Positions 1 through 1,374 of a DNA stretch of 21,716 nt are shown piece after piece; within the stretch, counting starts at the first letter, position 1, and the number at the start of each line of letters is the position of its first letter. The translations under genes and the position numbers were made by a program. Source of the DNA: a virus; IMG/VR virus record IMGVR_UViG_3300030116_005050, positions 1 to 21,716 of that record, one strand, 5' to 3'. Under the pieces are notes generated by a model that worked only from the letters and a program-made list of their open reading frames with translations, made no database searches and was not told where the DNA came from.

Positions 1-249
1 CGAGGCTTGCGATAGGTGAATAGCATCGTTAGCCGGGTGATCAAGAGCGCCAACTAAAGAACGATCACCGATCTTTTCTTGAATAGCCTTAACTTGGCTC
101 TCCAGAATCTTTCTCGGGTAGATTCTCCCATTGTTATTCTGCTCGTCGCACTGTTGGAACTTGCCTCGCAGACGAAGGCGAGTGTTACCCTCTTTGCCTT
201 CATTGATAACTTCTACTTTCTCTAAAACGTTGCACTCGACGAGTAACAT
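1..249 (-). CDS. 21: Prohead protease, T4 gp21-like (N-terminal 83 codons, runs off left edge)
   Basis: This is the start of a serine protease of the T4 gp21 (peptidase S80, herpesvirus-assemblin-like) type, which digests the scaffold core and trims capsid proteins inside the prohead. The visible 83 residues contain a beta strand leading into 'NNNGRIYPRKILE' (38-50) and then 'LVGALDHPAND' (65-75). These line up with T4 gp21 'NRNKRLYPKRILE' and 'ALGELNHP', so His71 corresponds to the T4 catalytic histidine (His85). The catalytic serine lies beyond the window. The N-terminus is about 14 residues shorter than in T4. The ATG at 247-249 is chosen because an AGGA Shine-Dalgarno lies 6 bases upstream, overlapping the TAG stop of the preceding basic-protein gene. 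The gene follows three small core-type genes, as gp21 follows 67 and 68 in T4. The family call is firm on motif and context; the gene name rests on homology by eye. Confidence 0.85.
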   Translation of the reverse strand, partial: MLLVECNVLEKVEVINEGKEGNTRLRLRGKFQQCDEQNNNGRIYPRKILESQVKAIQEKIGDRSLVGALDHPANDAIHLSQAS

Positions 250-255
250 AATAAA

Positions 256-259
256 TCCT
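256..259 (-). promoter_or_regulatory. Ribosome binding site of the prohead protease
   Basis: On the minus strand this reads AGGA, 6 bases before the ATG at 247-249, and it overlaps the TAG stop (258-260) of the upstream gene. The whole leader, AGGATTTATTATG, is nearly the same as the leader of the 110-residue acidic protein gene (AGGAGTTTATTATG), so the first and last visible genes of the head module share an initiation signal. It fixes the protease start, which would otherwise be uncertain because the gene is cut by the window edge. Confidence 0.7.
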
Positions 260-656
260 ATTTCTGCTTACGTGACCAGTATTTCTTGCTCTTGAATTTA
301 CCGGACCTTTGCTTACCATGCCTAACCAGAGTTCTGACGGCATATTTTTTTACATCTTCAAACTTGGAAGGGATGCTGCCAGGAGAGAATCCTTTAGCAA
401 CTCGCCCTCCAACTTCCTGTTCATCATCCTTACCCCACTTTCTTTTGGTAATGACATAAAGACGATTAGAATTTTTAGTGGAAAAGATCTGACCTACGTA
501 ACCTTTTTTCAAAGCAGTTGTGATAGAATCATAAACTTTAACGCGGGACTTAGACGCTTTAGTCTTAGCCCCACCTTTCTTCATCTTGGCCCTGCCCTCA
601 GCAGAGCCTTGAGCCTTAGTTGCCCTTGTTTCTTTTATTACGTTTACGAGATCCAT
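258..656 (-). CDS. Very basic small protein, likely prohead core or DNA-associated
   Basis: This is a 132-residue protein with about 36 Lys or Arg against roughly 10 Asp or Glu. The basic residues are spread through an N-terminal tail (8-40), a central beta-looking segment ('GYVGQIFSTKNSNRLYVITK', 52-71) and a C-terminal tail (113-132). I do not recognise the family. It sits between two probable core-protein genes and the prohead protease, so a role in the prohead core, or as an internal nucleic-acid-binding protein, is inferred from place and charge. It has no obvious (I/L)-x-E protease site, unlike its two upstream neighbours. The 5' end overlaps the upstream gene by 41 bases. An alternative start at Met25 (582-584) has AGGG upstream and would leave a 108-residue protein with almost no overlap. 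The long start has only a weak AAAGAAAA leader, so the start is unresolved. Confidence 0.72.
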   Translation of the reverse strand: MDLVNVIKETRATKAQGSAEGRAKMKKGGAKTKASKSRVKVYDSITTALKKGYVGQIFSTKNSNRLYVITKRKWGKDDEQEVGGRVAKGFSPGSIPSKFEDVKKYAVRTLVRHGKQRSGKFKSKKYWSRKQK

Positions 657-1032
657 TTTTCTTTACAGGAGCTAAATTCACACCGATCATGCCAGTGGTG
701 GTCATTTCTTCCATGACAGTTCTAGCTTCTTTTAAAAGTTCTTTGAGATTTTCGACAAGAGTTTCAAGTCTTTCTTTTAAAATGGTAGCCTCATTAATCG
801 GTTCAAAGTCTGGCATCATTTCCTGCTTCTTATCAGGATCAGATGCTTCATTCAAAGCCTCACTAAATCCAACCACTTGATCGACAAAGGCATTAGGAAC
901 TATAACGTCCTTAAGCCCATCGTCTTTGATCGGCTTACCTTCATGATTTGGAACAATCACCTTCTCCACGGAAGGTGTTTTAGACAAGATACCTTCGGTT
1001 AAGGCTAAAAGATTTTTAGTGCTTGCACTCAT
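616..1032 (-). CDS. Putative prohead core protein with protease-type cleavage sites (T4 gp68-like by position)
   Basis: This 138-residue protein has a mixed N-terminal half, a helical, probably coiled-coil segment (about 79-111) and a short basic tail ('KKNGSRKRNKRNKGN', 124-138). Four places match the T4 prohead-protease consensus (I/L)-x-E|(A/G/S): LTE|G (11-14), LNE|A (60-63), INE|A (79-82) and LKE|A (100-103). T4 core proteins are digested at such sites by gp21, and a gp21-like gene lies two genes downstream. Size (T4 gp68 is about 141 residues), place and sites together suggest a scaffold-core component, but I cannot align it convincingly to gp68. The ATG at 1030-1032 has GAGG 7 bases upstream, overlapping the TGA stop of the previous gene. 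It is very probably co-expressed with both neighbours. Confidence 0.75.
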   Translation of the reverse strand: MSASTKNLLALTEGILSKTPSVEKVIVPNHEGKPIKDDGLKDVIVPNAFVDQVVGFSEALNEASDPDKKQEMMPDFEPINEATILKERLETLVENLKELLKEARTVMEEMTTTGMIGVNLAPVKKNGSRKRNKRNKGN

Positions 1033-1041
1033 CTTTTAACC

Positions 1042-1374
1042 TCACTCGTCGTCTTCTTTGTCTTCTTCGTCCTTGTCCTCTTCTTCCTTCTCGTCTTCGT
1101 CCTCATCCTTCTCTTCAGCTTCCTCAATGGACTCTCCGTCCTGCTCAAGGGCTTCATTGATGGTACCAAGGATGAAGTCAACGCACTCTTGCATCGCCTC
1201 TTCCGAGATCGGGGCATCTAACTCCGACTCACACAGCGGGCAAACGTGACCATCTTCGCAGGCTTCCTCAACCACTTCAACTTCTTGAGCCTCATTGATC
1301 TCCTTGGACTCAACAAGCTGGTTCGCGGCCAGGATTTGGCCAACATAATCATCATCAACATTAATGTAACGCAT
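1042..1374 (-). CDS. Acidic small protein with Cys cluster, putative prohead core protein (T4 gp67-like)
   Basis: This 110-residue protein has three parts. The N-terminal region (1-38) is helical and acidic. A cysteine cluster follows: Cys39, Cys45 and Cys48 in 'CEDGHVCPLCESEL', then Cys64, with His43 inside the cluster. The C-terminal third (from about 76) is almost entirely Asp, Glu and Lys. T4 gp67, an internal core protein, also ends in a long acidic run and lies just before 68 and 21. Possible gp21-type sites are LVE|S (20-23), INE|A (26-29), INE|A (72-75) and IEE|A (83-86). The 'VCPLCESEL' stretch looks like half of a zinc ribbon, which I do not know from T4 gp67. AGGAG lies 6 bases before the ATG, giving the best ribosome binding site of the head module. 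It is the first gene after the only real gap in the window and may open a new transcription unit. Confidence 0.75.
   Translation of the reverse strand: MRYINVDDDYVGQILAANQLVESKEINEAQEVEVVEEACEDGHVCPLCESELDAPISEEAMQECVDFILGTINEALEQDGESIEEAEEKDEDEDEKEEEDKDEEDKEDDE

Follow-up and report, generated by a model that had tools for sequence, protein, structure and literature searches.

Organisation of the locus

The window analysed here, a fragment of viral DNA, spans 21.7 kb, and the minus strand holds its main genes. Read in transcriptional order, genes for the baseplate and tail (gp25- and gp6-like by Pfam and PHROG) and for large proteins come first, followed by p110, p138, p132 and a protease gene (Table 1), the gene immediately preceding p110 coding for a large tail-region protein and not for a portal. 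The protease fragment matches Pfam Peptidase_S77 (E=2.5e-8, and E=5.5e-22 for a full-length relative) as well as phrog_207, the head maturation protease (E=1e-15). The sequence-only reading had placed a gp21-like gene just downstream of p110 and p138, and judged by these profile matches the gene downstream of p110, p138 and p132 is indeed a gp21-type S77 protease. Of the catalytic motifs only the LDHP His motif falls inside the window part; relatives that share 94-100% identity with it retain DHP, GISSRG and FDLVSDP, matching by eye the NHP, GVSSRG and VDAVWGP of T4.

Table 1. Genes and putative gp21 sites at the locus. A slash follows the motif Glu (P1); fractions are nonredundant relatives keeping the Glu unless stated otherwise.
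Feature	Position	Strand	Remarks
gp21-type prohead protease, first 83 residues	1..249	-	gene cut by window end
gp21 INE17/G	in fragment 1..249	-	N-terminal; conserved
p132	258..656	-	132 aa, neighbour in the series; strongly basic (+27); start overlaps p138 end
p132 Glu9, MDLVNVIKE/T	630..632	-	CTS-like leader site
p138	616..1032	-	ORF, 138 aa; LxE-rich; short basic C-terminal tail
p138 Glu109, VMEE/M	706..708	-	34/35; hydrophobic P3, large hydrophobic P1'
p138 Glu102, LKE/A	727..729	-	35/35, invariant; 9 different P2 residues
p138 Glu81, INE/A	790..792	-	31/35; 9 different P2 residues
p138 Glu62, LNE/A	847..849	-	32/35; end of helix 47-62
p138 Glu13, LTE/G	994..996	-	26/35 (moderate); N-terminal helix
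p110	1042..1374	-	ORF, 110 aa; acidic
p110 Glu85, IEE/A	1120..1122	-	30/34; 9 different P2 residues
p110 Glu74, INE/A	1153..1155	-	31/34; within predicted helix
p110 Glu49, LCE/S	1228..1230	-	invariant, inside CPLCES
p110 Glu28, INE/A	1291..1293	-	candidate cut; [ILVM]xE in 30/34
p110 Glu22, LVE/S	1309..1311	-	9/34
161-aa protein with membrane-like stretch; variable strongly basic protein (in a relative)	L093:7670-8155; L093:8152-8601		phrog_23735; phrog_27331

Scanning of viral contigs for relatives gave 46 distinct sequence sets; these preserve the arrangement p110-p138-p132-gp21-(variable basic genes)-gp22-like-gp23, with gp23 identified by Pfam at 4e-75. In several relatives the interval between gp21 and gp22 holds a protein of 161 aa that includes a hydrophobic stretch of membrane-like character, together with a variable, strongly basic protein. 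Two other ORFs in the window, 1029-1217 (-) and 1058-1249 (+), are out of frame and overlapping, and we judged them to be shadows of the acidic codon run and not genes. The last 41 bases of p138 (616-656) also belong to p132, and the basic C-terminal tail of p138 thus shares its DNA with the p132 leader.

Homology searches gave no name to the three proteins. No match to p110 or p138 was found by tblastn against 50,697 phage records, and Pfam and PHROG scans assigned the window p110, p138 and p132 to no credible family. A few p110 relatives match scattered unnamed PHROGs, probably through their acidic sequence, while p138 relatives have no PHROG matches and PDB profile searches returned marginal matches only (best E 0.01).

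gp21-type motifs are in excess in p110 and p138

Proteolytic maturation of the prohead core is textbook knowledge. In T4, gp21 cuts after (L/I)-x-E, and the core proteins gp22, gp67 and gp68 are degraded (PMC9026906, PMC9958956). The sequence-only reading had listed eight matches to [IL]xE/[AGS], four in p110 (E22, E28, E74 and E85) and four in p138 (E13, E62, E81 and E102), with INE/A occurring three times across the two proteins. All of these are present, and a ninth strict match, LCE49/S in p110, had been overlooked. It had also warned that chance could produce such matches in Glu-rich sequences, and had named shuffled versions of the proteins as the check. In composition-preserving shuffles 0.52 strict matches are expected in p110, where five are observed (P=3e-5), and 0.36 in p138, where four are observed (P=2.5e-4), the counts thus lying far above the shuffled ones. 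Shuffling within 20-residue blocks left the significance the same or stronger. This excess answers the worry about Glu-rich composition, and chance did not hold up as the source of the matches.

The same excess is seen across the 46 relatives, with 192 motifs in the p110 family versus 22 expected from shuffling (8.6-fold) and 161 versus 18 in the p138 family (9.0-fold). The gp21 family (205 versus 39) and the gp22-like protein (111 versus 30) are also rich in motifs, gp23 is near expectation (44 versus 35), and two tail-region families show 85 versus 66 and 64 versus 62, that is, 1.0-1.3-fold. T4-type gp67, gp68 and gp22, used as a positive control, are enriched 5.4-, 4.9- and 5.1-fold. A neck protein family has a 2.4-fold excess.

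As a held-out set we used nine new divergent loci, absent from the earlier counts and found by a scan for relatives containing CPLCES. With CPLCES itself excluded, their p110 homologues carry 21 strict motifs versus 5.1 expected, and their p138 homologues 12 versus 2.6. The Asp control [ILVM]xD[AGS] is at expectation in these loci. In p110 the less stringent reversed pattern E-x-[ILVM], a second control, is in excess as well, so that the strict motif alone is informative there.

Conservation and predicted structure of the sites

Conservation of each site was read from nonredundant relatives, 34 for p110 and 35 for p138. The Glu is near-invariant (88-100%) at six of the eight listed sites and moderately kept at LTE13 of p138, bearing out the expected conservation in homologues except at LVE22 of p110, which we set aside as a likely cut site because it is poorly conserved and which is probably an incidental motif match. 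On average, motif Glu residues are conserved in 79% (p110) and 89% (p138) of relatives; the corresponding figures for the remaining Glu residues are 51% and 33%. P2 is highly variable at E85, E81, E102 and E62 (seven different residues at E62), yet the hydrophobic P3 is kept. A motif-blind score for conserved-variable-conserved triplets ranked INE28 second and IEE85 third of 88 in p110, and LKE102 first and INE81 third of 107 in p138. At E28, P1' is A, S, T, D or N. Over the sites generally, the choice at P1' broadens in remote relatives, taking in D, N, E, T and M. Such widening is also seen in gp23 homologues, where [LMIV]xE followed by E or A lies at about residue 47, near the position of FLTE65/A in T4 gp23.

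p110 consists of an N-terminal helix, the HxCPLCES motif, a second helix and an acidic tail. AlphaFold2 models of p110 and p138 (pTM 0.29 and 0.26) show isolated helices separated by low-confidence linkers and are largely without tertiary structure. They place E28, E62, E81 and E85 in linkers or at the ends of helices, with E28 in a low-confidence linker, E81 at the start of helix 81-112 and E85 at the end of a helix immediately before the acidic tail. Since E74 and E102 lie inside confidently predicted helices, E102 in mid-helix, these two are the least certain as cuts, and INE74 and LKE102 may be conserved partly for structure. E109 of p138 could be a further, atypical site.

The invariant LCE49/S was dropped as a cut site: it belongs to CPLCES, and its role is probably structural. 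Between residues 43 and 64, p110 has the invariant CPLCES, a nearly invariant H43 and, in relatives, either Cys or His at position 64. This HCC(C/H) set may form a metal site within a protein of the prohead core.

p132 carries a leader site and gp21 its own

The sequence-only reading had p110 and p138 as substrates and missed p132, which has a conserved leader site of its own. Counting from the aligned Met, [IL]xE ends at one of residues 8-11 in practically every one of 52 distinct homologues, with T, A, S, G, M, E or L at P1', and only seven of 305 other ORFs in the same loci have the stricter [IL]xE/[TAGS] at the leader position. T4 internal proteins carry a capsid targeting sequence (CTS) that gp21 trims off (PMC9026906, PMC9958956). 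The p132 leader resembles it: T4 IPII and IPIII start MKTYQEFIAE/A, and both leaders are some 9-10 residues long with [IL]xE at the end. The mature part of p132 is by eye dissimilar to those of IPII and IPIII, and its gene, unlike theirs, lies within the head cluster. p132 is a probable internal or core protein.

The protease also carries the motif. Near residue 17 of gp21, [IVL]xE, mostly as INE/G, is found in all 38 distinct sequences and is comparable to LIE-9 of T4 gp21, an autocleavage candidate (PMC9026906).

Basic extensions of gp21 in relatives

In relatives (L002-L052, for instance L028, L021 and L017) gp21 continues after residue ~197 into a long basic C-terminal extension; the window fragment stops short of this region, and T4 gp21 (212 aa) and Syn1 gp21 (214 aa) are without it. 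The extensions are 86-412 residues long and net basic, with embedded [VIL]xE/[AG] sites and with cassettes shared at different offsets between phages, among them STEIxGxxVVE/AFKKVCWGDRYDE (twice in L028), GSIKDDPEAFKKAKAK and ERCWKGYEPTPGKKAYSKGSC. A search of phage records for these cassettes gave no match. In one relative (L093:6408-7646) residues 206-255 of gp21, directly behind the protease domain, form a Dockerin/EF-hand-like stretch (DKNKNNKIDSEDF...DLSGDGKVTMKDIL) that matches Pfam Dockerin_1 at E=1e-4, just below the family cut-off.

A wider reading, which we offer tentatively and regard as somewhat less likely than not to be right, is that this lineage swapped gp67 and gp68 for unrelated core proteins that re-acquired the protease code, one of them Cys-rich and possibly metal-binding, and that gp21 is in addition a polyprotein whose extension sites could release internal DNA-binding peptides. 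If true, the extensions would be a new delivery route for internal proteins.

A prohead core probably cleaved by gp21

What we observed is the sites, with their enrichment and conservation, the order of the genes and the type of protease. On this basis, and by analogy with T4, we consider p110, p138 and p132 to be core (scaffold) proteins of the prohead that belong to a T4-like head module and are cleaved by gp21, with a probability of about 85%. The conserved gp21-type sites and the adjoining protease led us to take the three proteins as temporary parts of the inner core. The head-core, gp21-substrate reading first proposed for p110 and p138 therefore gains support from motif enrichment, from conservation that extends to held-out divergent loci and from the S77 gene next door. 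Counting against it are the missing profile similarity to gp67 (outside the acidic tail) and gp68, the helical setting of E74 and E102, the poor conservation of E22, the drift of P1' in remote relatives, the raised loose control in held-out p110 and the excess in the neck family.

With core location, cutting and peptide exit modelled on T4, p110, p138 and p132 would co-assemble with gp21 and the gp22-like scaffold inside the gp23 shell. Once active, gp21 would cut after Glu in (I/L/V/M)-x-E. Cuts in p110 at E28, E74 and E85 would free an N-terminal peptide, a segment with the Cys motif and helix, and the acidic tail, and p138 would be cut at E62 and E81, probably at E13 and possibly at E102. 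p132, a basic protein, would lose its 9-residue leader and remain in the head in association with DNA, while the small fragments would exit, making room for DNA.

The strongest competitor to this model, though improbable, holds that the mature head keeps p110 and p138, once trimmed, as internal proteins to be ejected, and that they are not degraded as scaffold. A small metal-binding fold built from CPLCES, H43 (in most relatives) and the Cys or His at 64 might survive cleavage, and the basic tail of p138 would also suit a retained protein. However, three to four internal sites per protein leave fragments of only ~11-50 residues, resembling the fate of gp22, gp67 and gp68 and not the single leader cut of T4 internal proteins (PMC9958956). 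We think it still less likely that the LxE positions are kept for structure, as helix packing, caps or coiled-coil contacts, in core or accessory proteins that stay uncut there. The helical setting of E74 and E102, the invariant L96 and L99 adjoining LKEA, and the clear membership of LCE49 in CPLCES all favour such a role, but E28, E62, E81 and E85 lie in linkers or at the ends of helices and have highly variable neighbours, yet P3 and P1 are kept, and p132, gp21 and gp23 carry the motif where T4 IPIII, gp21 and gp23 carry theirs. As for chance matches inherited through common ancestry, p110 and p138 contain much Glu or Leu, and the relatives are not independent of one another; yet the shuffle P values come from the window proteins alone, motif Glu residues are far better conserved than other Glu residues and the held-out loci agree, making this explanation very improbable.

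The novelty lies in which proteins serve as substrates and in gp21 possibly being built as a polyprotein in relatives. Families whose window members have no PHROG or Pfam assignment can now be named as likely substrates of gp21 in a T4-like lineage that is uncultivated, and prohead core proteins can be found by the conserved-variable-conserved LxE signature instead of by homology.

Comparison with T4 and other phages

Aligned with hhalign, p110, p138 and p132 show no homology to T4-type gp67, gp68 or gp22: p110 matches gp67 in the acidic tail only (Prob 12%), and p138 versus gp68 gives Prob 0.1% (E 0.41). Membership of the gp67 and gp68 families is thus not supported, while it is well supported, by analogy, that p110 and p138 work like gp67 and gp68. 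Our best reading is that the two are non-homologous counterparts of these T4 proteins and that p132 is an internal protein. The architecture of p110 is gp67-like: T4 gp67 (Pip) and p110 are both short, acidic and encoded in a cluster upstream of gp21, and gp67 has LIE/A near its N-terminus and LIE/G right before its acidic tail, where E85 of p110 is equally placed. The HxCPLCES motif is missing from T4 gp67, and in T4 the gp20 portal gene, not a tail-region gene, precedes gp67. p138 in turn is gp68-like in architecture, with homology not detectable; T4 gp68 (~140 aa, with N-terminal LxE sites and a basic C-terminus) is similar in size and layout, but lies immediately before gp21, whereas here p132 stands between p138 and gp21. 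In phiKZ and SPN3US, likewise, a prohead protease directed at Glu (gp175/gp245) cleaves many head proteins and cuts propeptides at multiple places (PMC5694885); these phages differ in their preference for S-x-E and A-x-E, that is, at P3, and in their much longer propeptides.
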